64,000 nucleotides of DNA from Hyphococcus sp. (lineage in GTDB: Bacteria > Pseudomonadota > Alphaproteobacteria > Caulobacterales > Parvularculaceae), in NCBI GenBank assembly GCA_013002535.1, contig JABDJK010000080.1, positions 1 through 64,000 on the forward strand, read 5' to 3'. Under the pieces are notes generated by a model that had not been told where the DNA came from, ran no database searches, and worked only from the letters and a program-made list of their open reading frames with translations. Below are positions 6,998-30,354 of the stretch, in pieces (within the stretch, counting starts at the first letter, position 1; the number at the start of each line of letters is the position of its first letter). The position numbers and the translations under genes are program-made.

Positions 6998-7046
6998 GAT
7001 CGATCTCTGGCTCGCTCATATATAGGGACCAAGCCAGATTGAAAGA

Positions 7047-7062: not shown

Positions 7063-7086
7063 CGCCGCAAGATGGATTCTGGCCGT

Positions 7087-10895: not shown

Positions 10896-10972
10896 TCTTG
10901 TAAAACGGACGACGGCCTCTCAGTATGGCCGCGATAGTTTCGCCAGTTTTTGCGTCAGACGAGTTTCAATTT

Positions 10973-11947: not shown

Positions 11948-12021
11948 TTGAGGGGCCCCCCCGCGTCGAAACCGCGCCATAGCATACGTCTTGGCATTGA
12001 ATAGTAAAACGGAGGCCCAAA

Positions 12022-12729: not shown

Positions 12730-12732
12730 CGC

Positions 12733-13104: not shown

Positions 13105-13261
13105 GATTGTGCTCCCTTTGACTAAATTTCGATCCCAATCCTAACGCGCCCGGCAACGAAAAATCGATCACCTAAAGGGGTGATTTGGCGCAATAGTTCT
13201 GATGTTCCTCGCGCCGTCGCTGGTATGGCCTTGTCTGAAGTTTTCGATAAATTCGATCTCC

Positions 13262-13675: not shown

Positions 13676-13800
13676 ATACCCGTCGGACAAGCCCAGAAAA
13701 GCCCTTTTTTGCTTGCCGTTATAAATAAAATTCGCAATTGAAAATATGAGCGCTAAGCTCGGTAGTGTTCACATACTTATCGATGCGAGAAGGGGAAATC

Positions 13801-14373
13801 ATGGGTTTTTTAAAATTGTCCGGTCTGTTTGTGGCGGCATTTGCAATCATGACGCCGGCGCTCGGCCAGGAAGAGCTGGGGCGACGACTTGAAGAGGCGA
13901 TGAAACCAGCTCTTGAAGGAAAGGGTCTACCGAAGCCTGAGCTGAAAAAATTCGGTTACAATAGCGGCGCAAAGTATTGGGTCTCGCCGATGTTGAAGAA
14001 CTCCCACAGCACCATCAACGGCGAACAGTGGACCTCGAACGGCAGCCCCGTCATGGAGTATTTCGATTTTTCGGTAATCAATCCGAGCGGCGCAAACACG
14101 GCAAGCGCGTTCCTGAACTGTTATACGGCAGATGGCGCCATCGTTCCGCAATTTTCCATGAATTTCGCTTTGCCGCCGAAGGCGGCAAAAAATCTGAGCT
14201 CGATGGACGTCCCGCCGCCGGCGAGCGGCGACCCCGGTGTGTTTGACTTCCATAAGGTATGGTGCGCGGTCGGCGCAAATACACCGGTGGTGGCGTTCGG
14301 CTGGACCGAGCGCCGTCACGCCGGTGACGTTCGTAGAGACAATTTTTCCCTTGAGCGCGTCGCCGCCGAATAG
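13801..14373 (+). CDS. Secreted protein of unknown function
   Basis: A 190-residue protein with a clear signal peptide (MGFLKLSGLFVAAFAIMTPALGQ) and likely cleavage after ALG. The mature part has an amphipathic helix, then beta-rich sequence with two Cys (FLNCYTADG, KVWCAVG) that could form a disulphide, and a terminal VVAFGWTERRHAGD. I do not recognise the family. The ATG at 13801 is preceded by a GAGAAGGGG ribosome-binding site, preferred over an in-frame Met at 13765. It is co-directional with downstream small genes but separated by 140 bp. Confidence 0.65.
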   Translation: MGFLKLSGLFVAAFAIMTPALGQEELGRRLEEAMKPALEGKGLPKPELKKFGYNSGAKYWVSPMLKNSHSTINGEQWTSNGSPVMEYFDFSVINPSGANTASAFLNCYTADGAIVPQFSMNFALPPKAAKNLSSMDVPPPASGDPGVFDFHKVWCAVGANTPVVAFGWTERRHAGDVRRDNFSLERVAAE

Positions 14374-14513
14374 CGGCCGCCACGACCTTATCTGCCGGGC
14401 GCGTCACGCCATAAAGTGAGAATTCACGCCGATTCACCCGTTTGGGCGATTGGCGGCGACCGCCGTTATACGGCATACGGATAACAAACGCACATAATCC
14501 ACGGGGCCATCCT

Positions 14514-14909
14514 ATGCCAAGTTTTGCCGACAAATTGACGGGACCAGAAAAGGACTTTGTCACGGCCCTCCGCCGTATCATTAAGATGGCTGACAGGGCG
14601 GCTAAAGAAGCGCCGGGCGCCATCATGAGCGCCAAAGATGCGCTCTGTTATAATGAACAAGAGACTTTCAAATACGGCCTCGCCAAGGGCAAATCCGGGA
14701 TCACGTTTCATTCTATGGTGATGTACGCCAACGCCGATATCGCCGATCTAGGAAAGTCATCCCTTACCGGCGCAAAGTTTCAAAAAGGCTGCATCAATAT
14801 TCCGGATCCTGATGCGTTTGACCTCAAGGCGTTTGAGAATTGGATGAATGCGAGCGCCAAAAAGGACTTTTCGCCAGTCATCGAGCACTACCGAAAAAAA
14901 CGAATATAG
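14514..14909 (+). CDS. DUF1801-like (YdhG-type) small protein
   Basis: A 131-residue cytosolic protein. The pattern of an N-terminal helical stretch, KDALCYNEQETFKYGLAKGKSGITFHSMVMYAN and a final IPDPDAFDLKAFENW matches the DUF1801 fold, whose members include frataxin-like YdhG proteins. I start at MPSFADKL (14514); an upstream Met at 14442 only adds unstructured residues. It overlaps no neighbour and precedes the VOC/PhnB-like gene by 11 bp, so the two are probably cotranscribed. The match is by pattern only. Confidence 0.6.
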   Translation: MPSFADKLTGPEKDFVTALRRIIKMADRAAKEAPGAIMSAKDALCYNEQETFKYGLAKGKSGITFHSMVMYANADIADLGKSSLTGAKFQKGCINIPDPDAFDLKAFENWMNASAKKDFSPVIEHYRKKRI

Positions 14910-14920
14910 AAGGACGCCTC

Positions 14921-15328
14921 ATGGCCCAAAAAATCTCAACCTATTTGATGTTCGCCGGCGAAGCAGAAGAGGCGGTAAATTTCTACGTCGAGAATCTGGA
15001 TGAGGCGAGCGTCAACTCGATTGATCGCTGGAGCGATGACGAGCCCGGTCCAACCGGGAAAGTGAAAACAGCCTATTTCACCCTGTGCGGGCAGACCTTC
15101 ATGGCGATCGACTCGCCCAGCGTTCATGAGTTTTCATTTACGCCGTCGATTTCATTGTTCGTCGACTGCGAAAACGAAGCGCAGATTGATACGCTTGCGG
15201 CGAAATTCCTTGAGGGCGGTAAGAGCTTGATGCCGCTCGATAATTACGGGTTTTCGAAAAAGTTTGCCTGGCTTGAGGATCGCTACGGCGTCTCCTGGCA
15301 ATTCAATTTGCCGTCTGACGCTGCATAG
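14921..15328 (+). CDS. PhnB-like VOC-fold protein
   Basis: A 135-residue VOC protein of the PhnB / 3-demethylubiquinone-methyltransferase-like subgroup: KISTYLMFAGEAEEAVNFYV at the start, FTLCGQTFMAID in the middle, and the closing WLEDRYGVSWQFNLP. These are usually small dimeric proteins of unknown ligand. The start at 14921 (MAQKIS), 11 bp after the preceding gene, carries an AGAAGGA ribosome-binding site. It probably shares an operon with the DUF1801-like and DUF4199 genes. Confidence 0.85.
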   Translation: MAQKISTYLMFAGEAEEAVNFYVENLDEASVNSIDRWSDDEPGPTGKVKTAYFTLCGQTFMAIDSPSVHEFSFTPSISLFVDCENEAQIDTLAAKFLEGGKSLMPLDNYGFSKKFAWLEDRYGVSWQFNLPSDAA

Positions 15329-15343
15329 GAAAGGAATTTTCCG

Positions 15344-15898
15344 ATGAAAAAAATCGCATTCATTTATGGCGGCATCGCCGGCGCTATCATCATTTCCGTT
15401 ATGACGCTGGGGCTGGTCGTCAGCGAGGGCGAGGGCGCCTCATCGTCAGAAGCCTTCGGCTATTTGACGATGTTGATCGTCCTGTCGATGATTTTCGTCG
15501 GCGTTAAAAAGTATCGCGACCAGGATCTTGGCGGCGTCATAAAGTTCGGTCCGGCATTTGGACTTGGCGTCGCCATCGCGTCGGTCGCTGGCCTGTTTTA
15601 CGTCATGGGATGGGAATTTTATCTCGCCGCCACCGACCACGCGTTCATCGATGACTACACCGCCGGCGTCATTGAATCGAAACGCGCCGCCGGTATGGCC
15701 GGCGCTGATCTCAACAAACTGATCGCGGATATGGAGGCGATGAAGAAGACCTACGCCAATCCGCTTTTCCGTATGCCTATGACTTTTCTCGAAATTTTTC
15801 CGGTAGGGCTGGTCGTCGCACTTTTTTCTGCGGCGCTCTTGCGCAACCCGAAAATCCTGCCGTCGCGCGGGCCTACAACGCTAGAACGGCCCCAGTGA
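15344..15898 (+). CDS. DUF4199 integral membrane protein
   Basis: A 184-residue inner-membrane protein with four hydrophobic helices (about 5-28, 38-56, 68-92, 140-165). The segment MFVGV-like KKYRDQDLGGVIKFGPAFGLGVAIA is characteristic of DUF4199. Function unknown. It is 15 bp downstream of the PhnB-like gene, so likely in the same transcript. Its last 26 bp overlap the convergent 55-codon membrane gene on the other strand. Confidence 0.8.
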   Translation: MKKIAFIYGGIAGAIIISVMTLGLVVSEGEGASSSEAFGYLTMLIVLSMIFVGVKKYRDQDLGGVIKFGPAFGLGVAIASVAGLFYVMGWEFYLAATDHAFIDDYTAGVIESKRAAGMAGADLNKLIADMEAMKKTYANPLFRMPMTFLEIFPVGLVVALFSAALLRNPKILPSRGPTTLERPQ

Positions 15899-16040
15899 CA
15901 GCGGAAATCACTGCGACAATGGCGCCGCCAATAATGAAGTAAGCGACTTCCGCTGCGCCGAGACGGCGCAAGACAAATACGAATGCGCCAAGAAATGCGG
16001 CGATACTCAAAAGCCCGATAAGGCCCATTGGGGTTATCAT
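15873..16040 (-). CDS. 55-residue two-helix membrane protein
   Basis: Small gene encoding MITPMGLIGLLSIAAF, a turn with LRRLGAAEVAY, then a second hydrophobic helix FIIGGAIVAVISAV. The two strongly hydrophobic helices around a short charged loop form a helical hairpin. Upstream of the ATG is a very good ribosome-binding site (GGAGAGGAGA, about 7 bases away). It overlaps the 3-prime end of the DUF4199 gene on the opposite strand by 26 bp. Function unknown; candidates are a membrane-protein partner or a toxin-like peptide. Confidence 0.65.
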   Translation of the reverse strand: MITPMGLIGLLSIAAFLGAFVFVLRRLGAAEVAYFIIGGAIVAVISAVTGAVLAL

Positions 16041-16208
16041 GGGTCAAAATCTCCTCTCCGGATTTTCGATAAATCAGGATTGTCATCCGTATGGCGACGG
16101 TTGTCGCGATGGATATGTTTTAGGAGCGCTGCAGGACGATAACGCGGCGAGAATGTGACAAGCGGAAGACCGGTGATCACATTCTGCTTATGATTGTTTC
16201 AAACCCCG

Positions 16209-17633
16209 CTAGCCTCTGGGGCTCGACATGGGCGGCGTCGCTCTGGGGCCTACAAGCTTGATTTTGCTTCTTTTTTCTGGGTCCGCAGCGCCGCTTTCAT
16301 AAGCGGCGATGAGCCGGAACGCGAAATAAACGCCAAGGCCTGCGAATATTATGCAACCCAATGCATGGCCGATCAGGACGCCCGGCGCGCCTCCGATGAT
16401 GGAACCGAGCCAGACGAATGGAATGACGCCAATCGTATTGCGCCCCCAGTTGAGCCAGGTCGACCAGTACGGCCGGTTCAAATTATTGAAAGAAGCGTTG
16501 GAGACAAACAATGCGCCGTTGAAGAAGAAAAGCGGCGCGATCACCGCCGCAAACCAGAATATTAATTGTGCGCCCGTTTGATCGAGGCCAAACTGCCGCG
16601 CAACAAACCCGTTCAGTGCAAAGAGTATAACCCACATCGCGGCGATATATAGCGCCGTGAATTGCAGTGCGCGTCGCAGGGCCTCGCGCACCCGGTCATA
16701 ATTGCGCGCGCCAAAATTCTGGCCCACAATTGGCCCTACCGCACCGGAAAGGGCGAAAATGACGCAAAAAGCGAGCGGCGAAAGTCGGCTGATGACGGCA
16801 AACCCGGCGACGGCGCCGTCGCCATAAGGTGCGATCGCGCGCGTCACAATGATGGCGCCGATGGGCGTTGCGATATTGGTGAGGATCGCTGGCCCGGCAA
16901 TGCCAAAAATGGGCGCGAGGTCTCGTTTGAAATGGTCGGCGTCGAATTTTGCGAACCCGCCATAATGTTTCAGCACCGGGTAAAGCGCGGTCGCCATCAT
17001 TGCGAAACGCGCTGCAACGGACGCGAGCGCCGCGCCGTCGAGCCCAAGGGAAAGCCCAAAAATCAGGATCGGATCAAGGATTGCGTTGACCGCCCCGGCC
17101 GCAAGGGTCGCGTTCATCGCCCGTTTGGCGTCGCCATGAGCGCGCAATAATCCAGAACCCACCATGGCGAGCGCAGCGATCGGCAGGGTCGGCACGACGA
17201 TGCGCAAATACCGCACCGCCATCTTTTTGGTCTCGCCTTCGGCGCCAATCATATCGAGAATTTGCGGCGCAAAGATCCAGCATAAAGCCCCCATCACCGC
17301 GCCGATGGTTACGGAGACAACGACAACACTCATTGCAATCCTGCGCGCCTCTTCTTCGTCGCCTCGGCCAATGCGCTGGGCGGCGAGGGCGCTCATGGCG
17401 ATCATCATGCCGATTGTGAGCGACATGTTGAAGAACAGGATTGTCCCGGCGAACCCGACCGCGGCCGCGAGCTCAGCTTTGCCTAAAAGCGAGATGAAAT
17501 AGAGATCGACGAAATCAACGAGGAATATCGACACGAGGCCGAGGCTCGACGTCATCGACATGACGATGACGTGGCGCATCAGATTTCCGTGGAGAAATTT
17601 CGCTCTTGGTTTTTGAGGTTCAGTTTCGGACAA
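16209..17633 (-). CDS. MATE-family multidrug/toxin exporter
   Basis: Inner-membrane cation-coupled exporter of 474 residues with twelve hydrophobic helices. Motifs typical of MATE proteins are visible: the N-terminal SLGLVSIFLVDFVDLYFISLLG, GLLRAHGDAKRAMNATLAAG in the middle, and the second-half repeat SGAVGPIVGQNFGARNYDRVREALRRA with the conserved GQNxGA. Both pseudo-symmetric halves are complete. Substrates for this subfamily are usually cationic drugs, dyes or metabolites and cannot be told here. No regulator is adjacent. The next gene on this strand, to its right, is the secreted metzincin. Confidence 0.92.
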   Translation of the reverse strand: MSETEPQKPRAKFLHGNLMRHVIVMSMTSSLGLVSIFLVDFVDLYFISLLGKAELAAAVGFAGTILFFNMSLTIGMMIAMSALAAQRIGRGDEEEARRIAMSVVVVSVTIGAVMGALCWIFAPQILDMIGAEGETKKMAVRYLRIVVPTLPIAALAMVGSGLLRAHGDAKRAMNATLAAGAVNAILDPILIFGLSLGLDGAALASVAARFAMMATALYPVLKHYGGFAKFDADHFKRDLAPIFGIAGPAILTNIATPIGAIIVTRAIAPYGDGAVAGFAVISRLSPLAFCVIFALSGAVGPIVGQNFGARNYDRVREALRRALQFTALYIAAMWVILFALNGFVARQFGLDQTGAQLIFWFAAVIAPLFFFNGALFVSNASFNNLNRPYWSTWLNWGRNTIGVIPFVWLGSIIGGAPGVLIGHALGCIIFAGLGVYFAFRLIAAYESGAADPEKRSKIKLVGPRATPPMSSPRG

Positions 17634-17752
17634 AGGTTATCGCCACGCTCGGATCAAATCAGCGCGCACCATGACGGAATGCGCGCGCGCGCGCCATCCA
17701 TGTTTTCAACGCTTGGACGCAGAAAATCTCACGTTCGTGCGAGACAAGAATA

Positions 17753-17776
17753 AAGGGGCCCAAATCTGGACCCCTT
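17753..17776 (-). terminator. Intrinsic terminator of the metzincin gene
   Basis: On the minus strand AAGGGGTCC pairs with GGGCCCCTT (nine pairs, one wobble) around the loop AGATTT and is followed by the T-rich TATTCTT. It lies 23 bp downstream of the protease stop codon. Confidence 0.75.
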
Positions 17777-17798
17777 CTTCTTCGGGATGTCGCCTCAA

Positions 17799-20321
17799 TT
17801 AAAAAACGATATTGAAGCTCGGCGAACAAGCCATAGTGGAACCGGCTTCGCAAACCTCGTAACTATATGATCCGCCGCCTTTATTCCCGATATTGTCGGT
17901 ATAGGCGCCGTCATTGGCGGTGGTCGCGACCACTGATCCATTGCGGCGAATATCGACGCTGGCTCCCCCGGCGCCAGCCCAGGTCAGGTCCGCATGCTGC
18001 ACGCCCTTCACTTTGTAGCCATTGCCCGAGGCGCTGATTGCCGGCGCTGAATCGGTAGTTGCGGATGCGGCATTGGAACAGCCGTTTTCGCCGCCGCCAT
18101 TGAACGCCTTCGCCCAATACCAATAAGTGGCAGCCGGCGCGGCGGACATGTCGGTATAGCTGACGCCGCCAGTTCCGGCGTTGGCGCCGAGCGTGTCGAT
18201 GGACGAGCCGGCGTTGCAATCGCCCCCTGGATTGCTTGTCGAACGCCAGATTTCAAATCCGAACTCATCGCTTGCGTTGTCGGTAAAGGCGAGCGAAACG
18301 CTCGAAGACGTAACGCCGGTGACGCTCATGGCGGACGGCGCCGGCGGCGGCGATCCAACCTCAGTGTTCGACGTGATGACAATATGGTCAACCGAGAGCG
18401 TATCCGCCGGCTCGCCATTCGTTTGAGCTGCGTCGCGCGCCTGAATGCGAACGGCGCCGGATGTGCCACCCGGAAGTACGAAGGTTTGTGAGGTCGACGA
18501 CGATGTCTGATCGACCGTAAACATCAGATTGTAAGAGGCGCCGTTATCGGTCGAATAATAGAAATTCGCGCCTTCACCGCCGGAGACCCAGGCGTTTGCA
18601 GTGAGGACTACGCCGCCTGCGCCGCCAAAGACGTCAACCGTCCAGGTGTGCGTAAACGATTGTTTTCGCCTCTTTTTCGGCCCTCCGGCGCCCAGTTCAG
18701 TGATCGTCTGAACAACGCCGTCATCACCGTGGGTCGCAGTAAAGTTGCCAGAAACCGAACCGGCGCCAGCAATCTCTCCATCGGCAACGTCGTCGATTGT
18801 CGACGGGACGCTTTGCGTCGTCGCCGACGCAGTGTTGGTGTAACCGGATGACCCCGCGCCATTGTCTGCGCGCACGCGATAAAAATAGGTCGTTTCCGGA
18901 TTAAGTCCATTGTCGCCGTATGATGTTGTGTTGGCTGAAAGCGTCGCGACGGTCGACCAACTGGATTCATCTAGCGAACTCTGGACAACGAACGAGCCTT
19001 CGTCAGACGAATTGTCCGTCCACGAAATATCGATTCTGTCCGACCCTAAAGCGGACGCGGAAAGACCGCTTGGCGCCGCTGGCGGGTTTTGCACCGGCGC
19101 ATCCCGGAAGGACGCGACATAGGCAGCGCTCTCGTTTAACGTCCGCGCCGCCCAGGCGCCGCGCGTCGGATCGACCGCAGGGTCAACGCCCGTCGCCACG
19201 CCGAGATAATTGACATTCGGATTGGAAAACCGTCCAACGCGAGAGGCGCCGGAACAAGAATAGGCCATGGTTGTTCGGAAATAGGGCGAGCCGAAATCAT
19301 CGATAGACCCGTCATTACAGCGACGGTAGCCGTAATTGTAGGCGCCGTTGGCGCCGCCGCCATGTTGCGCCCGGTCATGGAGCGAGCCTTGGTTATGGCC
19401 AAGTTCATGGGCCAATGTCCGGTTGGTGAGGCAAAACTCCGCCGTCACATTGAACGCTGTTGTCGGCGAGGCCGGGCGATACCCGACACCGCAAAACCCG
19501 CCGCCCGAGGCCGTCACAAGGCCGACAAGATCGGCGCCGAGCGTATCGCGCGCCGGGTGCACCTCATCGATAATCCCGTCGCCGGTCAGGCGCAACTCGG
19601 ACAGCATCTGGGAAATGCCTTTGCCGTCCTCGAGATAGTCCACCTCCATCAGGCCGACGAGGTTCATAGTAATGTCGACGCCGCTGGCTGCGTATGACGC
19701 GTTCATATCGGCGACAGCGGCGGTGATGTCCGCTTCGATTTGCGAGCAATCGACGCCCGATGTGCCGCCGACGGTCTCGCACGCATCATCGGAATAAGCG
19801 ATCAATAGGTCCTGTTGTATCGGATCTGCCTCAGTAGCGGCATCGAACCCAGGAACAGCGAATTCGCCGCCGCCATCAGGCAGCACATCCGGTTCTTCCT
19901 GCGGGAAGCCGCTGAAATCGATTTCGTTGAGGACAAACCCGCCACGCCGGTCGCCCGTGATCTGATAGGCGCGGCCCTGATAATCGATCCGCGCTGAATA
20001 AGCGTTGCCGCGCATGGTGACGATGACGCCGTCCGCTTCATTGCCGCCGACATTGCCGTACCAATTCAGCGTGCCTCCTTTTTGGCGCTCAACACGATCG
20101 CGCACGGCGGTGACTGTCTCACCGAACAGATCGATCTCGAAAGAAGGCGCGTTTAGCGACCGGCGATTGACATGAATTTTTTGTGCGGCGCTGACATGGC
20201 CAGGCAGATTTGCGGTCGTCGGCGCGCCGACAGACTCAAATAGCGGCGCCGCTGCAAAGGCGGATGAGAATGCGATGACGCCAGTTGCAGCGCCTGCAAG
20301 CAAGGTAGAGCGTATAGTCAT
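17799..20321 (-). CDS. Secreted metzincin metallopeptidase with fibronectin type III domains
   Basis: Extracellular zinc protease of 840 residues. A Sec signal (MTIRSTLLAGAATGVIAFSSAFA) and propeptide-like region precede a reprolysin-like catalytic domain (about 165-410). The zinc site HELGHNQGSLHD (305-316) matches HExxHxxxxxH followed by the metzincin Asp, and TTMAYSC supplies the Met-turn near 350. Next comes a fibronectin type III domain (about 415-505), a beta-sandwich region carrying an odd basic KKRRKQ insert near 560, a second FN3-like domain (about 665-760) and a short terminal Ig-like segment. It is monocistronic with its own terminator. Likely a scavenging protease; FN3 domains probably hold it to polymers or cells. 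Confidence 0.88.
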   Translation of the reverse strand: MTIRSTLLAGAATGVIAFSSAFAAAPLFESVGAPTTANLPGHVSAAQKIHVNRRSLNAPSFEIDLFGETVTAVRDRVERQKGGTLNWYGNVGGNEADGVIVTMRGNAYSARIDYQGRAYQITGDRRGGFVLNEIDFSGFPQEEPDVLPDGGGEFAVPGFDAATEADPIQQDLLIAYSDDACETVGGTSGVDCSQIEADITAAVADMNASYAASGVDITMNLVGLMEVDYLEDGKGISQMLSELRLTGDGIIDEVHPARDTLGADLVGLVTASGGGFCGVGYRPASPTTAFNVTAEFCLTNRTLAHELGHNQGSLHDRAQHGGGANGAYNYGYRRCNDGSIDDFGSPYFRTTMAYSCSGASRVGRFSNPNVNYLGVATGVDPAVDPTRGAWAARTLNESAAYVASFRDAPVQNPPAAPSGLSASALGSDRIDISWTDNSSDEGSFVVQSSLDESSWSTVATLSANTTSYGDNGLNPETTYFYRVRADNGAGSSGYTNTASATTQSVPSTIDDVADGEIAGAGSVSGNFTATHGDDGVVQTITELGAGGPKKRRKQSFTHTWTVDVFGGAGGVVLTANAWVSGGEGANFYYSTDNGASYNLMFTVDQTSSSTSQTFVLPGGTSGAVRIQARDAAQTNGEPADTLSVDHIVITSNTEVGSPPPAPSAMSVTGVTSSSVSLAFTDNASDEFGFEIWRSTSNPGGDCNAGSSIDTLGANAGTGGVSYTDMSAAPAATYWYWAKAFNGGGENGCSNAASATTDSAPAISASGNGYKVKGVQHADLTWAGAGGASVDIRRNGSVVATTANDGAYTDNIGNKGGGSYSYEVCEAGSTMACSPSFNIVF

Positions 20322-20483
20322 GAAATGGTCCCCGGTTACGCGACAAGTACTGATGCAAATTCATTGCCGCATGGATGACCATGTTTGTCAAATGAATTGA
20401 TTTTATTAAGTTTTTAGCTTTCGTCGCGGTAAGGTTCTGGAATTTCATCATGAAATTTTCAGCGAGATTTGCGGTTCCTAGTC

Positions 20484-20510
20484 AAAAAAAGGGGCGCGAC
20501 AAAGCGCCCC
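20484..20510 (-). terminator. Isolated terminator-like hairpin between divergent genes
   Basis: Read on the minus strand, GGGGCGC-TTTGTC-GCGCCCC is a perfect 7-bp stem followed by seven T. It lies between the divergent metzincin and [2Fe-2S] genes and points toward the protease start 163 bp away. Nothing annotated on the minus strand ends here, so it may close an antisense or leader RNA. Confidence 0.6.
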
Positions 20511-20598
20511 CGATCAGCGTCGAGCCGCAACGCGAATTGGCGCGATTGCGTCTATGGTGCGGCGAACGCAATTGGGCGAAAGCAATAAAGAGGCGGCG

Positions 20599-21063
20599 AT
20601 GGTTTCCCTGACAGTAAACGGTGAGAGAAAAGAATTTAGCGGCGATGAGGAAATGCCGCTGCTCTGGTACTTAAGAGATTTCGCCGGCGCAAAAGGCGTT
20701 AAATTCGGCTGCGGCATCGCCCAATGCGGCGCCTGCACCGTTCACTTAAATGGCGAGGCGGTTCGCTCATGCGTGACGCCCGTTAGCGCGGTTAACGGCG
20801 CCGAGATCACAACCATCGAGGGGCTCGCAGACGGGGACGATCTTCACCCTGTCCAACAGGCCTGGATCGAAGAAGATGTTTCACAATGCGGCTATTGCCA
20901 GGCTGGTCAGATCATGGCGGTATCTGCGCTCCTTAAAGACAATCCGAACCCGAGTGACGACGATATAGATCGTAGTCTGACGAATATCTGCCGCTGCGGG
21001 ACTTATTATCGCTTGCGAAAAGCCATTCACACGGCGGCAGCCAAATTGCGGGAGAATGCATAA
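20599..21063 (+). CDS. [2Fe-2S] small subunit of an isoquinoline 1-oxidoreductase-like molybdenum hydroxylase
   Basis: Electron-transfer subunit (154 residues) of a xanthine-oxidase-family enzyme. The plant-type ferredoxin cluster ligands lie in FGCGIAQCGACTVHLNG with a further Cys in AVRSC, and the second cluster ligands are in QCGYCQAGQIM and NICRCGTYYRLR. No signal peptide is present; it would ride out with its TAT-borne partner. I start at the ATG at 20599 with an AGAGG ribosome-binding site. Its stop overlaps the start of the large subunit gene by one base (TAATG), so translation is coupled. Confidence 0.93.
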   Translation: MVSLTVNGERKEFSGDEEMPLLWYLRDFAGAKGVKFGCGIAQCGACTVHLNGEAVRSCVTPVSAVNGAEITTIEGLADGDDLHPVQQAWIEEDVSQCGYCQAGQIMAVSALLKDNPNPSDDDIDRSLTNICRCGTYYRLRKAIHTAAAKLRENA

Positions 21064-23330
21064 TGGACGGCGCACGCCTGTCAACTTCTCGTCGCGACTT
21101 CATCCGCTACGCCGCCTCTGCCGGCGCACTAATCATTGCCGCGCCTGCCTGCTCGCGCGGAGACCGCGAAAAAGAGGCTTCAACCGCAGAAGCCGCTATC
21201 GCCTCCGGCCCGCCGGTTGACGTCACCCCCATGATTGCGATTACGCCCGACGACCGCATTCTTCTCGCCTTCCCGAACCCGGAAATGGGTCAGGGCGTTG
21301 ATACGGCGTTGCCCATGCTGGTGGCGGAGGAACTCGGGGCTGATTTCGACAAGGTCGAGACCTCGCAATTGCCGCTGGCCTTGATGCCCGACGGCGAGGG
21401 CGGCTTTACCTGGCGCTATGTGCCGCAAGGATCCGGCGGGTCTTATTCCATTGTCGGTCATTGGGAGGGTCTGCGTCAGGCCGGCGCTATAGCGCGTGAT
21501 CTCCTAGTTCGGGCCGCATCCGCACAGCTGGAAGTTCCCGCGGACGAACTGACCGTCGCGAACAGCGTCGTCACCCATGCGGCCAGCAACCAAAGCCTGA
21601 CCTTCGGCGCCCTTGCCGGCGCTGCGGCTGAATTGGAACCGCTGGAAGAAGCCCCACCGCTAAAACCGCGCGAGGAATTCTCGATCATAGGGACGGCGCG
21701 GAAAATGAAAAACGCCCGCGCAATCGTTACCGGCGAGGCCGTCTACGGCATCGATGCAGAAATGCCCGGCATGGTCCACGCGGTGATGGCGCGATGTCCG
21801 TACTTTGACGGCACAGCCAACAGCGTTGACGACGCTGCTGCGCGCGCTGTTCCCGGTGTAATCGATGTCGTCAAAATTGACCGCCCGCCGCTCGGCGAGC
21901 CCTACACCGTTCAAGCTGAGGGCTACGCCGTTATCGCTGAAAACACATGGGCGGCGATTAAGGGTCGCGATGCCCTCAAAATAGATTGGGATCATGGTCC
22001 GTATTCTGATGAAACAAGCGCAAACTTCAGGGCCCATTGCGAAGAACTGTTGACCCGCGAGGGCCAAATCGTTCGCAATGACGGCGATTTTGCCGCTGCT
22101 TGGGAAAACGCCGCTTCAACCCATGAGGCTTATTACTGGCAGCCCTACGTTTCTCACGCGCCGCTGGAGCCGCAAAATTGCGTCGCCCATGTGCGCGAAG
22201 ATGGGGTCGATATCATCGGCCCCATGCAATTCCCATCGGGACCCAACCGCTTGATTTCAAACGTTTTAGACCGGGACCGGATGACTATCAACGTGACTCC
22301 CACGAGGCTCGGCGGCGGCTTCGGCCGGCGTCTGTCCAGCGATTATGCGCTGGAAGCCGCGCTTGTCAGTGACGCCGTCAAACGGCCGGTTAAACTCCTC
22401 TGGACCCGCGAAGACGATATGCGTCACGATTTTTTCCGGCCCGCCGGCATGCATCATATGCGCGCTGCCTTCGACGCCGATGGCAATATGACTGCCTGGA
22501 CTCACCGGCTCGCGAGCGCGTCGAAATACTATCGCCGCCCGAATATGCCGGATACGGATCTTTGGACGTCGGAACTTTACCCGGACGACTTTCCAGCATA
22601 TCTGGTCGAGAATTATCGGCTTGAGTATTTCCCGGCAACCTCCGGCGCGCCGCGCGGATCATGGCGGGCGCCCTCGCACACCGCCAACGCCTTCGTCGTC
22701 AACAGTTTCCTTGATGAAATTGCCCGGACGCGCGGTGAAAATGCGCTCAAATTGCGCCTTCGAATTCTGGGCGAACCGCGCGAGCTCACCTATGCAAACC
22801 ATGGCGGCCCGACCTTCAATCCAGGCCGACTCGCCGGCGTGTTGCGTCTGGCGGCGGAAAAAGGCGGTTACGGCGAGGCCATGCCCGAGGGTCAGGGCCG
22901 GGGCATTGCCGCTCACTTCACCTTTGGCGGCTATGTCGCCCACGTCGTTGATGTAGAAGTGAATTCCTCTGGCGACCTCAAAGTTCTTAGGATCGTCGGC
23001 GCCGTTGATGTCGGCACGGTGGTCAATCCTAATGGCATCGCGGCCCAGCATGAAGGCGGCGTCATTGATGGTCTTTCAACCGCATTGCGTCTTGCCATTA
23101 ATGTCACCGGCGGGCGCGTCACCACCGGCAATTTCGACGAATATCAAATCATGCGGATCGCCGAGGCGCCGCACGATATCGAGACCCACATTATCGATAA
23201 TGGCGAACCGCCGGCGGGGATGGGAGAAATGGGCTTGCCGCCATTGGCGCCGGCGCTGACAAACGCTATTTTCGACGCGACCGGCAAGCGTGTCCGTGAT
23301 CTTCCGTTAGCGGATCAATTACGCAGTTAA
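21063..23330 (+). CDS. Molybdopterin-binding large subunit, IorB-like, TAT-exported
   Basis: Catalytic subunit of 755 residues. A twin-arginine signal (TSRRDFIRYAASAGALIIAAPAC) implies periplasmic location, as in the isoquinoline oxidoreductase / aldehyde-dehydrogenase branch of the xanthine oxidase family. Later blocks include NPEMGQGVDTALPMLVAEELG, TPTRLGGGFGRRLSSDYALEA around the Mo-cofactor loop, GAPRGSWRAPSHTANAF and the terminal GEMGLPPLAPALTNAIFDATG with the catalytic-Glu region. It is translationally coupled to the Fe-S subunit and lies 15 bp upstream of an amidohydrolase lipoprotein, suggesting one pathway. The substrate is not inferable; electrons presumably leave through a membrane cytochrome not seen here. 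Confidence 0.9.
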   Translation: MDGARLSTSRRDFIRYAASAGALIIAAPACSRGDREKEASTAEAAIASGPPVDVTPMIAITPDDRILLAFPNPEMGQGVDTALPMLVAEELGADFDKVETSQLPLALMPDGEGGFTWRYVPQGSGGSYSIVGHWEGLRQAGAIARDLLVRAASAQLEVPADELTVANSVVTHAASNQSLTFGALAGAAAELEPLEEAPPLKPREEFSIIGTARKMKNARAIVTGEAVYGIDAEMPGMVHAVMARCPYFDGTANSVDDAAARAVPGVIDVVKIDRPPLGEPYTVQAEGYAVIAENTWAAIKGRDALKIDWDHGPYSDETSANFRAHCEELLTREGQIVRNDGDFAAAWENAASTHEAYYWQPYVSHAPLEPQNCVAHVREDGVDIIGPMQFPSGPNRLISNVLDRDRMTINVTPTRLGGGFGRRLSSDYALEAALVSDAVKRPVKLLWTREDDMRHDFFRPAGMHHMRAAFDADGNMTAWTHRLASASKYYRRPNMPDTDLWTSELYPDDFPAYLVENYRLEYFPATSGAPRGSWRAPSHTANAFVVNSFLDEIARTRGENALKLRLRILGEPRELTYANHGGPTFNPGRLAGVLRLAAEKGGYGEAMPEGQGRGIAAHFTFGGYVAHVVDVEVNSSGDLKVLRIVGAVDVGTVVNPNGIAAQHEGGVIDGLSTALRLAINVTGGRVTTGNFDEYQIMRIAEAPHDIETHIIDNGEPPAGMGEMGLPPLAPALTNAIFDATGKRVRDLPLADQLRS

Positions 23331-23345
23331 CTGGAAAAAGGAGCG

Positions 23346-24695
23346 ATGATGAAATTCGCTATGGGCTTGGCGGCCGCAATAATGATGGCTGCCTGCAGCG
23401 CCGATCCAGCTGACGCGCCATCGCCAAACAATGGCGCCGGCGAGAACGCCGCATCTCAAATCACCGCCTTTGTCGGCGCAAACATCATACCGATGGATGG
23501 ATCCGACATGGTTGAGGTCGGGACAGTCATTGTCGAAGGCGACCGGATCACTGCGGTCTTTTCATCCGGCGAAATCGACCCACCCGAAGGCGCAGAAATT
23601 ATCGACGCCGCGGGGCAATTTCTGATCCCGGGGCTTGCTGAAATGCACGCCCATATCCCATCGGGCAATAGCGGTTGGGCGACCGAAGATATCCTTTTTC
23701 TCTATGTTTCTCAAGGGGTTACTACAGCGCGCGGGATGCAAGGGGGGTCCGGTCAGCTAAAGCTCAGGGCGCGCGCAAACGCAGGAGACATCATCTCACC
23801 AACGCTTTACCTGGCAGCGCCCTCCATGTCGGGCAATTCCGTCAGAAGTCCGGCGCAAGGCGTGGAGCGCGTCCGCAAAGCCAAAGATGATGGTTGGGAT
23901 TTGCTGAAGGTTCACGAAGGGCTTTCGCGTGAGACCTATGACGCCATCGCTGATACGGCCAATGAATTGGAAATCCCGTTTGGCGGGCATGTCTCTGACG
24001 AAGTCGGCCTCCAACATGCCGCCAATAAAGGCCAGCGCACCGTCGATCATCTCGACAATTATCTGGACTTCATGGGCGCGGAGACGAGCCCGGTGATAGA
24101 CGAAGCCCTTTCCCGAGCGGTTGCGCTGACCAAAGGCGCTGGTATGGGCGTCGTCCCGACCATGGCGCTATGGGAATATTTCGCCGCGAAACCCGGTGAC
24201 TTTGATGATTATAATGAACTGCGCTTTGTCCCAAAGAATGTCGTCGATGGCTGGGCCCGGCGCGTCGCCAGCGGCGGTAATACGGAGGCGAGCGAAGACG
24301 AACAAGCAATCTATTTTGAAAACCGCCGCAAACTGTTAAAGGCCCTCGCTGATGGCGGCGCTGAAATCTTACTAGGATCCGATGCGCCGCAACTTTATTC
24401 CGTACCGGGATTTTCAATCCACCGCGAAATGGCGGCGATGGCGGAAGCTGGGATGACGCCGGCGCAAATTCTTCACTCCGGGACCGCAGCGCCGCGGGCG
24501 TATTTCGCGGAAAAGGACACGTTCGGCCAGATCGCGCCCGGTAACCGCGCCGACCTTATTCTCGTCGGCGCCAACCCTCTTGACGACATCAGTAATGCAA
24601 GCAATATCAACGGTGTAATGGTGCGCGGGCGCTGGCTCAGCCGGGACGATATCGACGCGCGGCAAGATGAATTAGCGGCGAAATACGGAAACTAA
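23346..24695 (+). CDS. Amidohydrolase-family lipoprotein
   Basis: Envelope-located metal-dependent hydrolase (449 residues). The lipobox is in MKFAMGLAAAIMMAACSA, and the small N-terminal beta domain carries FVGANIIPMDGSDM. The barrel has the HxH metal pair in GLAEMHAHIPSG, further candidate ligands in GGHVSDEVG and VDHLD, and the catalytic Asp in ILLGSDAPQLYS; PGNRADLILVGANPLDD closes the typical C-terminal beta domain. It follows the molybdenum hydroxylase by 15 bp with an AAAAAGGAG ribosome-binding site, so a shared operon and pathway for a periplasmic heterocycle or amide are likely. Confidence 0.9.
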   Translation: MMKFAMGLAAAIMMAACSADPADAPSPNNGAGENAASQITAFVGANIIPMDGSDMVEVGTVIVEGDRITAVFSSGEIDPPEGAEIIDAAGQFLIPGLAEMHAHIPSGNSGWATEDILFLYVSQGVTTARGMQGGSGQLKLRARANAGDIISPTLYLAAPSMSGNSVRSPAQGVERVRKAKDDGWDLLKVHEGLSRETYDAIADTANELEIPFGGHVSDEVGLQHAANKGQRTVDHLDNYLDFMGAETSPVIDEALSRAVALTKGAGMGVVPTMALWEYFAAKPGDFDDYNELRFVPKNVVDGWARRVASGGNTEASEDEQAIYFENRRKLLKALADGGAEILLGSDAPQLYSVPGFSIHREMAAMAEAGMTPAQILHSGTAAPRAYFAEKDTFGQIAPGNRADLILVGANPLDDISNASNINGVMVRGRWLSRDDIDARQDELAAKYGN

Positions 24696-26145: not shown

Positions 26146-26592
26146 TCAGAACGGCTTGATGATCACCATAACGACAATGACGATTAGGGCGAGGAACGGA
26201 ACCTCATTCATGATGCGCCAGAATTTATCCGTCCGCGGGCGTTCGCCGGCCTCAAATTTTCGCCGGGCGCTGGCATAAAACCCGTGGATCGCAGATATCG
26301 CCAACACCAGCGTTAGCTTTACGTGAAACCACCCGTTACCGAGAAAATCAGGGTTCGCCCACAGCATGAGGATGCCAAGCACCCAGACGGCGACCATGGA
26401 TGGGTTGATGATGCCTTTCAGGAGACGCCGTTCCATTTGCGTCAGCATGCGCTCAGCTTCGCCGCCTTTTTCGGACTGATGGTGATAAACAAAAAGTCGC
26501 GGCAGATACATCATCCCCGCCATCCAGGCGATGACGAAAATCAAATGCGCTGATTTAATCCAAAGATACTGGTTGAGGAGAAATTCGCTCAT
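26146..26592 (-). CDS. hemJ: Protoporphyrinogen IX oxidase HemJ
   Basis: Inner-membrane haem enzyme that oxidises protoporphyrinogen IX to protoporphyrin IX in bacteria lacking HemG/HemY. The 148 residues show four transmembrane helices, the conserved His in KSAHLIFVIAWMAGMMYLPRLFVYHH, and WFHVKLTLVLAISAIHGFY with a second conserved His/Lys pair. It starts at ATG 26592, overlapping the hemE stop as ATGA, so the two haem genes are translationally coupled. Length and motifs match the UPF0093/HemJ family. Confidence 0.93.
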   Translation of the reverse strand: MSEFLLNQYLWIKSAHLIFVIAWMAGMMYLPRLFVYHHQSEKGGEAERMLTQMERRLLKGIINPSMVAVWVLGILMLWANPDFLGNGWFHVKLTLVLAISAIHGFYASARRKFEAGERPRTDKFWRIMNEVPFLALIVIVVMVIIKPF

Positions 26593-27626
26593 CTGCCTTT
26601 TCCGCGAATAAATTCGGTAAGCGCCGCAACATTTTCCGGCGGCGTTTGCGGAACAAATCCATGGCCAAGATTAAAGACATAAGGAACGTCATGGAACAGC
26701 TTCAAAAGCGTCTCAGCGGCGTCGAACATCGCCTTGCCGCCATTAACCACCAGCAACGGATCGAGCCCGCCCTGAACGGTTACATGATCTGACAAATTCG
26801 CCCGCGCCCAGGATGGGTCCATGCCATAGTCAATCCCCAGCCCGTCAGCATGGCCGATCATGGCGTACTCAATCGACTTTTCACCGACGCCCTTCGGAAA
26901 AAGTATGATCGGTGTTTCCGGGCGAGAAGCTTTCAAGGCGCTTGCAATCTTTTCGAGCGGTCGGATCGACAGCTTGTCGAGGACGGGCCAGGGCAGGCCG
27001 GCGGCCCAAGTATCGAAAAGTTGTATGGCGTCCGCTCCGGCGTCAATTTGCGCTTTTAAATAGGCTATGGTGTGAGTGGTCAGAATGTCGATGAGCTCTG
27101 TGATAAACGCCGGATGCTCATAATATTGAAAGCGTAGCGCCGCGGGGTCCTTCATCGATCGGCCCGCCAGCATGTAGGTCGCGACGGTCCACGGGGCGCC
27201 GGCAAACCCGATCACCGCTTTATCTTCGGGGAGGCTGGCGCGGGTTTTTGTCACCGTTTCAAACACTGCAGAGAGATCGCTCAGAATATCCGTCTCGCGA
27301 AAACCGCTGATATCCGTCTCGTGGGTTACGGGATCGAGAAGCGGGCCCTCGCCCTCAGCAAAGCGCAAGTTTCGCCCGAGCGCATGGGGAATCAGAAGTA
27401 TATCTGCAAAAAGAATTGCCGCATCCAGATCGAACCGGCGGATCGGCTGCAATGTCACTTCACTGGCAAGATCACTGTCGAAACACAGATCTAGAAAAGA
27501 CCCGGCCTTTGCGCGCAGCGCTCTATATTCCGGAAGATAGCGCCCTGCCTGACGCATATACCAGACCGGCGGCGTAGCGCTGACATCGCCGGAAAGCGCG
27601 TTCAGGAATTTGGAATTTCTGGACAA
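26589..27626 (-). CDS. hemE: Uroporphyrinogen decarboxylase HemE
   Basis: Cytosolic enzyme that removes four carboxyl groups from uroporphyrinogen III to give coproporphyrinogen III. The N-terminal signature PPVWYMRQAGRYLPEYR carries the active-site Arg/Asp-neighbourhood residues, GFAGAPWTVATYMLAG is the second signature, and FNLGHGFVPQTPPENV ends the barrel. The 345 residues are full length. It is coupled to hemJ by ATGA overlap. In Caulobacter the chromosomal origin lies directly upstream of hemE, and here too the upstream region carries a CtrA-type box. Confidence 0.96.
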   Translation of the reverse strand: MSRNSKFLNALSGDVSATPPVWYMRQAGRYLPEYRALRAKAGSFLDLCFDSDLASEVTLQPIRRFDLDAAILFADILLIPHALGRNLRFAEGEGPLLDPVTHETDISGFRETDILSDLSAVFETVTKTRASLPEDKAVIGFAGAPWTVATYMLAGRSMKDPAALRFQYYEHPAFITELIDILTTHTIAYLKAQIDAGADAIQLFDTWAAGLPWPVLDKLSIRPLEKIASALKASRPETPIILFPKGVGEKSIEYAMIGHADGLGIDYGMDPSWARANLSDHVTVQGGLDPLLVVNGGKAMFDAAETLLKLFHDVPYVFNLGHGFVPQTPPENVAALTEFIRGKGR

Positions 27627-28027
27627 TGGGGCTCGGAACTTTCCTTGTTAACTCTTTATAAAGGAATCTTAAAAAAGGATTAAAATAAGGATTCCCTATG
27701 GAAAGCGGGGATAATCCAGCACAGAGATAAATTCCATAGGTAAGACCAGCTTTCACCCCATAAAAACCAACATGGGAGAACTATTTCCGGAACAGCTGGA
27801 AAACACCGCTAACCATCACAAATCTCGCATGAATTTTTGCAGACCATATTCACTGCGGCTCTTGAACCTAAAGATTGATCGATATGGTGGGAAAATCCGG
27901 TGAGCAAATTTCCAGCCATACTTTTTCAATTCGACGCCGGGCGCCGAATGGGCGCCGAAGCAAAGATTTCCCGGCGCTGAAATCCGGGCTCGCGAAGATC
28001 GCTGTTTTTCCCTAAGACATCCCCAGG
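27627..28027. other. Probable chromosomal replication origin (Cori-like)
   Basis: A gene-free stretch of 401 bases between divergent hemE and ppsR, the same position as the Caulobacter origin. The left third (about 27641-27700) is strongly AT-rich. It contains a perfect TTAA-N7-TTAA CtrA box (27669-27683), a second imperfect one (27648-27662, TTAA then TAAA), two GANTC methylation sites (27664, 27690) lying in an inverted repeat (GGAATC...GATTCC), and a weak DnaA-like 9-mer TTATCCCCG on the minus strand (27706-27714). No consensus DnaA box was found, and dnaA itself is not in this window. Essential genes on both sides point away from it, as expected for leading-strand bias. Confidence 0.68.
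27669..27683. promoter_or_regulatory. CtrA-type binding site in the origin region
   Basis: TTAAAAAAGGATTAA fits the CtrA consensus TTAA-N7-TTAA exactly. In Caulobacter such boxes in Cori let phosphorylated CtrA silence replication. It lies between two GANTC (CcrM) sites. Confidence 0.65.
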
Positions 28028-28897
28028 ATGACAGACGCACAAAACGAAGAGAACGAAGTAAGTGAACGCCCGGCGCCGTTGGCGACTTATTTCCACGTAC
28101 ATCTCGTTTCAGATTCAACTGGCGAGACGCTAAACGCAATGTTGAAAGCGACGGCCTCGCAATTTGCGGCGGCAAAACCGCTGGAGCATATTTTCGCACT
28201 CGTACGTTCGCGGACGCAGATGGAAAAGACGCTTGCGGCAATCGAAGCCTCTCCCGGCATCGTTCTTTATACTGTGATTAATCCGGAATTGCGCCGGCTT
28301 TTGGAGATGCGCTGCAGTGAATTGCAAACCCCGGCGATCTCAGTGCTAGATCCGTTGATGGACGCTTTCACCGAGTATCTCGATCTTGAACAGACCCATA
28401 AAGCCGGCGCCCAACACCAGCTTGATGAGGATTACTTCCGCCGCATCGAGGCGCTTGATTACACGCTTTCCCATGACGATGGACAGATGACATGGGATCT
28501 GGAACCCGCGGATGTTGTGCTGATCGGGGTTAGCCGAACCTCGAAAACGCCGACTTGCATGTATCTCGCAAATCGCGGGATCAAGGCGGCGAATGTGCCG
28601 CTGGTGCCTACGTCGGATCCGCCAAAGGAGCTGTTTTCATTAAGAAAACCGCTCATTGTCGGATTGATAGCCGCGCCGGAACGACTGGCGCAGATCCGCA
28701 AAAGCCGCATCGGCGAGATGAATGCGGAAGGGTCGGTCGATGAATATTCCGATCTCGATGTAATTCGCGCCGAGGTGATCCGCGCTAAACGTCTATGCGC
28801 AAAACACCGCTGGCCGGTTATCGACGTTACCCGAAAATCTGTAGAGGAAACCGCCGCGGCGATTTTGACAAAACTATCTGCGAAGAAAAACCAATGA
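28028..28897 (+). CDS. ppsR: Pyruvate phosphate dikinase regulatory kinase/phosphorylase (PPSR, DUF299)
   Basis: Bifunctional ADP-dependent kinase and Pi-dependent pyrophosphorylase that switches PEP synthase or pyruvate phosphate dikinase off and on. The 289 residues show the family start FHVHLVSDSTGETLNAMLKA, then the nucleotide-binding GVSRTSKTPTCMYLANRGIKAANVPLVP around residue 160. It is the first gene to the right of the proposed origin, corresponding to the first gene of the Caulobacter map as I recall it. Its stop overlaps the start of the Maf-AroE gene as ATGA. Confidence 0.93.
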   Translation: MTDAQNEENEVSERPAPLATYFHVHLVSDSTGETLNAMLKATASQFAAAKPLEHIFALVRSRTQMEKTLAAIEASPGIVLYTVINPELRRLLEMRCSELQTPAISVLDPLMDAFTEYLDLEQTHKAGAQHQLDEDYFRRIEALDYTLSHDDGQMTWDLEPADVVLIGVSRTSKTPTCMYLANRGIKAANVPLVPTSDPPKELFSLRKPLIVGLIAAPERLAQIRKSRIGEMNAEGSVDEYSDLDVIRAEVIRAKRLCAKHRWPVIDVTRKSVEETAAAILTKLSAKKNQ

Positions 28898-30354
28898 CTG
28901 ATACCGCGAGCATTATACTGGCGTCGGGCAGCACGATCCGGGCGGAGATTTTGAGAAGCCACGGCGTCAATTTCTCCATTATCAAACCAGGTGTTGATGA
29001 GGACACCGTCAAAAAAGAATGCGCGGAACAAAATCTAGACCTTGAAACAATGGCGATGCGCCTTGCGGAAGAAAAATGCATGGCGGTGGCGCGCGATAAT
29101 CCAGGTTTTGTCATAGGGTCCGATCAAATTCTCGAATTTGAAAACCGCGCCTACGACAAACCAAACGATATGGGTGAAGCGAGGGCGCGTATCACGGAGC
29201 TTGCCGGCAAACCACATAGCTTAATCAATGCAACGGCGCTTGCCCTTGACGGAACGATTGTCTGGCGCAATTTGGCGCGACCGGTTTTGAAAATTCGCCC
29301 ACTCGAAGACGCGGAAGTTGATGCCTATATCGACGCGGCCGGGCCGGCCATACTTTCCAGCGTTGGCGCCTATCAGATTGAAACCGCGCCCGGCGCGCAG
29401 CTGTTTGAGAGTATCGCCGGCGACCGCTATGCGGTCCTTGGTCTGGCGCTATATCCGCTTTTAAAAGCAATGCGCATAAATGGCGCTTTCGGCGAAGAAA
29501 TGAAGTCGGCGAAGCCAGTATTGGCGGGTGTTCTGGGCCATCCCATCGGCCATTCGCTGTCCCCAGTCCTTCACAATTACTGGGTCAAAAGCGCCCACAT
29601 AAACGGGCACTATGTAGCGATCGACGCCGGACCGGACGAAGCCTCATTCGCCAAGGCTGCAAACGCGGCGCGCGCTCTTGGATTCGCCGGGTTAAACGTC
29701 ACAATTCCGCATAAAGAACATGCATTGGAATATGCCGATAGCGCCAGTGATCGCGCCAGGGAGATTGGCGCGGCAAATATGTTGAGTTTTCGCGATGATG
29801 GCGTCTTTGCTGACAACTCCGATAGCGCCGGGTTTGCGACACCGCTTTATGGGAAAATTCCCGATGAAAAAGTGAAGGCATTGCTCCTCGGCGCCGGCGG
29901 AGCCGCGCGAGCGATTATTCATGCCATCAGGTCTTTTGACAAAGGCGCCGAAATCACAGTCGCAAACCGCACCATAGAAAAAGCGGAAAAACTGGCGAGC
30001 GAGTTTGGCGTTGAGGTTGCTGACTGGGACGAGCGCGATGCGGCGTCGATCGATAAAAACTTACTCGTCAACACAACCAATCTCGGCATGAAAGGTGCGC
30101 CGGCGCTGGATTTTGACGTCTCAAACTTACCCGCGAAGGCTGTCGTTTATGACATTGTCTACACGCCGCTCGAAACGCCGCTGTTGCGCGACGCCGCGGC
30201 GCGCGGTCTCGCCAGCGTAAGCGGCATAGAAATGCTCGTATGGCAGGCGGTTCCGGGCTTTGAGGCCTGGTTCCGCAACCCGGCGCACCCGGTGACGGCT
30301 CAGGTCGATGAAGCCATGTGGGCGAATTTACTCACTGAGATGGAGGGCCGATAG
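28894..30354 (+). CDS. maf-aroE: Maf nucleotide pyrophosphatase fused to shikimate dehydrogenase
   Basis: One uninterrupted 486-residue frame carries two enzymes. Residues about 5-197 are a Maf/YhdE-type fold: LASGSTIRAEIL, VIGSDQILEFENRAYDKP and SVGAYQIETAPGAQLFESIAGDRYAVLGL. Residues about 209-486 are AroE: GHPIGHSLSPVLHNYW, NVTIPHKEHALEYAD with the catalytic Lys, the NADP loop LLGAGGAARAII and NRTIEKAEKLA. In relatives these are two adjacent genes, so a stop codon was lost between them. AroE reduces 3-dehydroshikimate; Maf proteins hydrolyse non-canonical nucleotides. The start is the ATG at 28894, overlapping the ppsR stop. Sequencing error is unlikely to fuse two frames so cleanly. Confidence 0.93.
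   Translation: MTDTASIILASGSTIRAEILRSHGVNFSIIKPGVDEDTVKKECAEQNLDLETMAMRLAEEKCMAVARDNPGFVIGSDQILEFENRAYDKPNDMGEARARITELAGKPHSLINATALALDGTIVWRNLARPVLKIRPLEDAEVDAYIDAAGPAILSSVGAYQIETAPGAQLFESIAGDRYAVLGLALYPLLKAMRINGAFGEEMKSAKPVLAGVLGHPIGHSLSPVLHNYWVKSAHINGHYVAIDAGPDEASFAKAANAARALGFAGLNVTIPHKEHALEYADSASDRAREIGAANMLSFRDDGVFADNSDSAGFATPLYGKIPDEKVKALLLGAGGAARAIIHAIRSFDKGAEITVANRTIEKAEKLASEFGVEVADWDERDAASIDKNLLVNTTNLGMKGAPALDFDVSNLPAKAVVYDIVYTPLETPLLRDAAARGLASVSGIEMLVWQAVPGFEAWFRNPAHPVTAQVDEAMWANLLTEMEGR

Follow-up and report, generated by a model that had tools for sequence, protein, structure and literature searches.

The window analysed in this work, a stretch of 64,000 nucleotides whose numbering is used throughout, is the beginning of a contig of 140,129 bp, which belongs to a 3.44-Mb draft genome in 116 contigs. 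The genome is assigned to the Parvularculaceae on the strength of its nearest named records, for the most part metagenome assemblies labelled Parvularculaceae, Marinicaulis sp. or Parvularcula sp. Between positions 27627 and 28027 lies a gap of 401 bp, bounded on the left by hemE (which codes for uroporphyrinogen decarboxylase) and on the right by a COG1806/DUF299 kinase-pyrophosphorylase gene of the PDRP/PpsR superfamily. The gap is longer than the 300 bp looked for in a hemE–COG1806 intergenic region of the origin type, and its G+C content (0.456) is below that of the 500-bp flanks (0.574 on the left and 0.532 on the right) and of the contig (0.540), giving the higher A+T content, relative to the surroundings, that is also looked for in such an origin. 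The coordinates, the G+C values and the profile matches of both neighbours bear out an earlier note on this DNA, which had described an AT-rich, gene-free gap between divergent genes. As for the gene names used there, hemE stands, since the TIGR01464 score is above its cut-off, whereas “ppsR” does not stand as a strict name and is used loosely, because the narrower PpsR model of NCBIfam reaches only 162 of the 350 bits required. The features of the gap and its boundaries are the following:

26589–27626, minus strand: hemE, left boundary, with a TTG start (PF01208, E 1.5e-101; TIGR01464, 373.7 bits, cut-off 302.95)
27627–28027, no strand: putative chromosome replication origin, intergenic (boundary genes, congener skew and parS, conserved blocks)
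27644–27693, no strand: the 50 bp with the lowest stability in the gap (nearest-neighbour energy), a presumed DNA unwinding element that overlaps CtrA-like sites 1 and 2
27648–27662, plus strand: CtrA-like site 1, TTAA-N7-TAAA, one mismatch; the pair with site 2 is kept in the genus
27664–27668, no strand: GANTC (CcrM-type), abutting the TTAA of site 2
27669–27683, plus strand: CtrA-like site 2, a perfect TTAA-N7-TTAA; sites 1 and 2 are 21 bp, or two helical turns, apart
27690–27694, no strand: second GANTC, its position kept in 13 of 28 genus genomes
27706–27714, minus strand: weak DnaA-box-like TTATCCCCG, beside the AT-rich block, two mismatches to TTATNCACA
27915–27921, minus strand: GTATGRC motif (GCCATAC on the plus strand), enriched in the gaps of the family; the one copy in this gap
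27939–27945, no strand: GGGCGCC box, first copy
27950–27956, no strand: GGGCGCC box, second copy
28020–28025, plus strand: TCCCCA, the published W-box hexamer (consensus in PMC4285127), just before the right-hand gene
28028–28897, plus strand: COG1806/DUF299 gene, right boundary (PF03618, E 9.5e-93; PRK05339 above cut-off)

No Rfam family reaches its gathering score within the 64-kb window, and a tRNA search found none. Between 27500 and 28200, a simple scan for sigma-70 promoters (other promoter types are outside its reach) detected none, and a terminator scan gave a single terminator-like match, which is at chance level. The start codon of hemE (27624–27626) is apparently TTG, the aligned position being ATG in many congeners. 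To the right, a single open frame of 487 residues (28891–30354) combines a Maf domain, placed first, with shikimate dehydrogenase (AroE) domains. Downstream of COG1806, the length of the longest open run differs greatly among the 70 named loci with enough sequence (from the best 80 of 543), with 285–541 residues in 26 Parvularculaceae-like rows and at least 440 residues in 12 of 44 others.

Gene neighbourhood, GC skew and partition locus

The conservation of the gap was followed in 28 genomes of the genus (our own and 27 congeners) and in genomes of related genera and families. Adjacent and divergent hemE and COG1806 genes are found in 58 of 60 genomes; the remaining two, G045 and G050, carry them on separate contigs and were left out of the gap counts. 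The pair is also intact in 80/80 named loci (the best 80 of 543, which overlap in part with the same genomes). The genus alignment contains conserved noncoding blocks along the gap; a further block (27850–27859) was set aside, because the alignment consists mostly of gaps there. One sequence, L022, is shortened by an offset of the hemE match and a run of N, and is counted as lacking the site in the 28-genome counts given below; site 2 and both GANTC are nonetheless visible in its alignment row.

GC skew places the origin most clearly in the congener G004, which is assembled as a single contig of 3.47 Mb. There, over a contiguous 160 kb, the cumulative skew minimum and the changepoint fall at 1256262 and 1256263, approximately 450 bp away from the hemE–COG1806 gap (about 1256710–1257107). 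The changepoint statistic is 6.8, whereas none of 500 block permutations exceeds 5.4, and the bootstrap 95% interval (1242121–1267433) is about 25 kb wide. When twenty samples of 20 kb were taken from this genome, the skew was negative in 8/8 up to 1.245 Mb, positive in 9/9 between 1.40 and 2.82 Mb, and again negative in the three that follow; a second switch is thus located close to the antipode of the gap. A sign flip around the gap is also seen in the congener G022 (nine of ten samples negative on its left, nine of ten positive on its right). The inflection of GC skew that had been put forward as a check on the locus is consequently present in these two congeners, but it is not reproduced in our own contig, which extends just 27 kb to the left of the gap. 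The mean skew of this contig is −0.007 to the left of the gap and +0.024 to the right, up to 60 kb, and its cumulative minimum (13601) and changepoint (80396) do not place the origin; own-contig skew was rejected as proof of it.

The genes parB, parA, rsmG, mnmG and mnmE, at 2588–8430, form a partition locus, whose main features are:

2588–4368, minus strand: parB (2588–3517; PF02195/PF17762/PF23552) and parA (3535–4368; PF13614)
5467–7495, no strand: perfect parS sites at 5467, 6507, 7047 and 7480, in the region of mnmG and mnmE; these four are the sole matches with at most one mismatch in this genome

These parS sites are located 20–22 kb from the gap. The corresponding distance is 17–20 kb in G004 and about 17–25 kb over G004 and G022 together, the parS region of G004 (1274150–1277319) being outside the skew changepoint interval. 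Among the matches listed, several congeners have parS on contigs other than that of the gap, in some cases through fragmented assemblies. The dnaA gene does not accompany the origin: it is found on another contig (C36) of this genome, approximately 490 kb away from the origin in G004 (C1:1745089) and approximately 550 kb away in G022 (C12:1140806). In our genome, parS and the origin are separated by the genes at 9924–24695 (from mnmE to rho), which include a zinc dehydrogenase, GDPD, MatE, a reprolysin-like gene with fn3, a molybdopterin oxidoreductase and an amidohydrolase.

The reading of the gap as an origin is strengthened by the skew minimum of G004, the four nearby parS sites and the retention of the gene pair in 58/60 genomes. 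Based on these data, the region 27627–28027 is almost certainly the replication origin of the chromosome, one of the hemE–COG1806 type; the earlier claim of a chromosome origin beside hemE is in this way supported by congener skew, by linkage to parS and parAB and by gene adjacency.

Predicted CtrA and CcrM sites

The stability of the DNA was estimated as nearest-neighbour energy over all 50-bp segments of the 140-kb contig. Only 21 segments are at least as unstable as the block 27644–27693, namely the block itself and 20 segments at 60697–60718, so that only one place in the contig is less stable than that of the CtrA/GANTC array. The AT-rich block is some 20–70 bp from the start of hemE, and part of its conservation may therefore be that of a promoter. 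The least stable DNA of the contig, at 60697–60767, contains another TTAA-N7-TTAA (at 60733) and lies just upstream of a gene pair matching the Haem_oxygenas_2 and FeeM/acetyltransferase families; judging from its sequence, it is possibly a CtrA-type promoter.

As had been described for the gap, a perfect TTAA-N7-TTAA is present (27669), together with a near copy 21 bp upstream (27648, one mismatch). Perfect sites are found twice in the whole window, with 0.49 expected and with 7 of 100 shuffles reaching two. In 3000 first-order Markov copies of the gap, a perfect site arises by chance with a frequency of 0.018, and none (0/3000) contained two sites in tandem, spaced by 21 bp, with no more than one mismatch over both.

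Within the genus, 25/28 genomes have a perfect TTAA-N7-TTAA at most 100 bp from hemE, and 25/28 contain both CtrA-like sites with at most one mismatch each. A GANTC immediately precedes the TTAA in 24/28, and this abutting GANTC occurs together with both sites in 22/28. The 11-bp spacing of the TTAA half-sites and the 21-bp spacing of the sites are kept, even when the better site is not the same one: in L020, L023 and L027 site 1 is perfect and site 2 has one mismatch (the reverse of most), in L033 both are perfect, and in L016, L031 and L032 the pair is weaker. The half-site columns of the alignment average 1.82 bits, compared with 1.42 in the other columns of the block, and in the GANTC columns the N alone varies freely.

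The number of GANTC in our gap (two) is what chance would give (mean 1.9; P of at least two, 0.57), and enrichment was rejected. The GANTC sites mentioned in the earlier note do exist (27664 and 27690), but the inverted repeat in which they were said to lie, although present here as GGAATC/GATTCC, has a similar counterpart (with the pattern used) in only 2/28 genus genomes, our own included; it was rejected as a conserved structure, and the conserved GANTC feature is the position of the first GANTC.

The combined pattern GANTCTTAANAAAG matches the origin in 25/28 genus genomes and other places three times (G027, G001 and G020). In 21/28 it has exactly one match, at the origin (the origin of G024 is present on two contigs), and its reversed control gives nine matches in the 28 genomes. 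This pattern is also a practical origin marker for draft genomes of the genus.

Outside the genus, a perfect TTAA-N7-TTAA is found in three of the eight gaps from other Parvularculaceae genera. Among five cultured named species, the perfect site is present in the two Aquisalinus and absent from P. oceani, P. dongshanensis and P. maris. In four other families of the order (f2–f5), the site occurs anywhere in the gap in 14/22 cases and at most 100 bp from hemE in one, its distance from hemE being 141–168 in f2 (4/6), 59–417 in f3 (4/5), 151–378 in f4 (3/5) and 303–409 in f5 (3/6). These distances, which vary between families and partly within them (L067–L088), suggest that CtrA sites may have been gained, lost or relocated in these origins. 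The gene position of the origin is kept across the order and its control sites are laid out differently, given that the perfect site is near hemE in 25/28 genomes of the genus versus 1/22 of the other families, where it is mostly further in.

The genome codes for the proteins that would use these sites. CtrA has 82% identity to the query over 228 residues and scores 425.9 bits with NF045991 (cut-off 350); one PDB chain, named CtrA and comprising the receiver domain only, matches it at E 1e-60 or better. A CcrM-like methylase (N6_N4_Mtase and RAMA domains) has CcrM as its best NCBIfam match, with 617 of 830 bits, below the equivalog cut-off. A GcrA-like protein is above the cut-off of PF07750 (the controls of this search also matched in one archaeon), and its best NCBIfam match, 182 of 280 bits, is under the equivalog cut-off. 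Together with the conservation in the genus, the genes for CtrA, the CcrM-like methylase and the GcrA-like protein uphold the view of the earlier note that the gap carries CtrA and CcrM sites.

DnaA boxes and other motifs

DnaA boxes are weak in this gap: none is found within one mismatch of TTATNCACA, and the four within two mismatches compare with 3.0 expected. In the whole window, 15 boxes are within one mismatch (25.6 expected). Over the genus, such boxes average 0.82 per gap (0.25 expected) and are present in 13/28. Two other patterns are more constant, namely GGGGA[AT]A (the reverse of the TTWTCCCC box), found beside the AT-rich block in 23/28 genus genomes, and the W-box-like TCC[CA]CA, which occurs in the gap in 28/28 and in its last 75 bp in 25/28. 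In the published consensus, W-boxes read TCCCCA and G-boxes read TGATCCACA (PMC4285127). No G-box TGATCCACA is found in our gap, nor the form TGATCCA, which is present in 4/28 genus genomes. The G-box is a feature of Cori that is not required of every CtrA-controlled origin, and our claim is that of the same kind of origin, not of a Cori. The DnaA-box content had been described beforehand as weak and odd; weak it is, but it is less odd than it seemed, since Cori itself is known for weak DnaA binding (PMC4468827; PMC4285127) and weak boxes are for this reason expected in an origin of this kind.

Towards the right-hand side of the gap, two further motifs were noted. GTATGRC is present in 22/28 genus gaps and in 8/8 gaps of other genera of the family (30/36 family gaps in all, with 0.04 expected per gap), compared with 2/22 gaps of the four other families. 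In the named set (best 80 of 543) it is found in 22/31 Parvularculaceae-like gaps and in 6/49 others; the gaps of P. dongshanensis and P. maris are among those that lack it. It occurs at 0.13 per kb over 400 kb sampled from G004 and at 0.285 per kb in our own contig; the 160 kb surrounding the origin of G004 contain 44 copies, and the gap there holds four, starting within 113 bp. The tandem form GTATGRCNNGTATGRC was rejected as a genome-wide mark of the origin, with nine matches (in 9/28 genomes, four of them at the origin, in G003, G004, G005 and G009) versus seven for the reversed control. The case for GTATGRC consequently rests on the single copies in the gaps, because the tandem is not above its control. 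The sole GTATGRCNNGTATGRC copy of our genome is outside the gap, at 4410–4425, as a GTATGGC/GTATGAC pair (9-bp period) within rsmG near parA; it resembles some congener origins and is directly followed by a parS-like GTTTCACGT. The second motif, GGGCGCC, is found in 27/28 genus gaps (0.09 expected per gap) and in 0/8 of the rest of the family; it is less specific than GTATGRC, since it also occurs in 4/5 f3 gaps and in 30/49 other named gaps (best 80 of 543). GTATGRC may point to a lineage-specific origin-binding protein.

Interpretation and comparison with known origins

The complete explanation that we propose, and regard as very likely, consists of an origin located at the gap, with an AT-rich opening element, repression by CtrA, opening by DnaA and methylation by CcrM. 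Its place, its neighbourhood, the congener skew and parS linkage, the conservation and computed instability of the block and the genes for CtrA and a CcrM-like methylase are observed. By analogy with Caulobacter, CtrA probably controls this origin. The block 27644–27693 would be the strand-opening element, and phosphorylated CtrA, sitting on the tandem sites (27648–27683) atop it, would keep the origin closed in cells that are not to replicate. Upon removal of CtrA, the block could be opened by DnaA-ATP, assembling cooperatively on such weak boxes as TTATCCCCG (27706) and TCCCCA (28020) and on further degenerate sites. Replication would then leave the GANTC sites half-methylated until CcrM acts, and methylation of the GANTC that abuts site 2 may report a just-copied origin. 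All of these steps of binding, opening, repression, methylation and timing are modelled on Caulobacter. A more specific proposal, which we put forward tentatively and think rather unlikely to hold, is that CtrA and CcrM act through a composite GANTC-TTAA on the strand-opening DNA, with methylation after the passage of the fork tuning CtrA binding and timing re-initiation, and that an origin protein of the Parvularculaceae binds GTATGRC.

Two other readings of the block have to be weighed. The block might be mainly the promoter of hemE, with the CtrA and CcrM sites regulating this gene and any origin function using the rest of the gap. CtrA regulates transcription and GANTC sites also regulate promoters, and in all of the genus alignment the block stays near the start of hemE; however, nothing else in the gap is less stable, and in the contig only one other place is, the skew of the congeners and parS independently place an origin at or near the gap, and the simple scan, which does not cover other promoter types, detected no sigma-70-like promoter. 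We consider this reading improbable, although it and the explanation preferred here are not mutually exclusive.

We give a similarly low probability to an origin located here in which the TTAA pattern is a by-product of an AT-rich unwinding element, without control by CtrA. TTAA is common in AT-rich DNA, the pair is weak or missing in several gaps of the family, and CtrA of Brucella has been reported not to bind the origin (PMC2877005). A by-product does not easily account for a tandem pair seen in 0/3000 simulated gaps, for 11- and 21-bp spacings that are kept while the better site swaps between 1 and 2, or for the stronger conservation of the half-site columns compared with the remainder of the block. 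Finally, initiation at another nearby place (the parAB-mnmG region or the AT-rich gap at approximately 60.7 kb), with our gap being only a conserved divergent promoter region, is very improbable, for even if the skew interval spans some 25 kb and the skew of our own contig shows no preference for the gap, hemE–COG1806 is the experimentally known boundary in Caulobacter (PMC1914354), conserved noncoding blocks run along the gap, and the parS region of G004 (and also 60.7 kb, if the interval transfers to our genome) falls outside the interval.

In its layout, the gap combines the predicted CtrA and CcrM sites in one compact element on the presumed unwinding DNA, which is directly testable. The closest known relative of this origin is Cori of Caulobacter crescentus, where hemE and CC_0001 (that is, COG1806) form an experimentally known origin boundary (PMC1914354), and which has in common with our gap these boundary genes, an AT-rich block, TTAA-N7-TTAA sites, GANTC sites (PMC3973325) and weak DnaA sites (PMC4468827). 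Linkage to parS exists in both, at approximately 8 kb from Cori (PMC6399470) compared with 20–22 kb here. The two differ in their layout: in Cori, five CtrA sites are found along the origin, which also has two G-boxes and an IHF site (PMC4468827, PMC4285127, PMC1914354), whereas our gap has its CtrA-like sites in one tandem array on the side of hemE, lacks a G-box, and contains boxes of the GTATGRC and GGGCGCC types.

In Hyphomonas neptunium, a CtrA ChIP signal has been reported at a site adjoining the origin (PMC7200025). The origins of Rickettsia prowazekii and of Wolbachia/Ehrlichia have the hemE boundary with predicted CtrA, DnaA and IHF sites, COG1253 replacing COG1806 in Wolbachia, Ehrlichia and Anaplasma (PMC1914354). 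Some marine Caulobacter origins use CtrA too, a use that probably evolved independently (PMC4468827), and the varied positions of CtrA sites across the order are compatible with this published view that the use of CtrA has evolved more than once. The open literature located on Parvularcula and Marinicaulis yielded nothing on their replication origin or on CtrA at it, and the passages compared on other origins yielded no description of the tandem CtrA/GANTC layout, which is weak evidence of novelty. When set beside these known systems, the place and the kind of the origin are as expected, and the apparently new details are the tandem CtrA/GANTC layout and the family-enriched GTATGRC.
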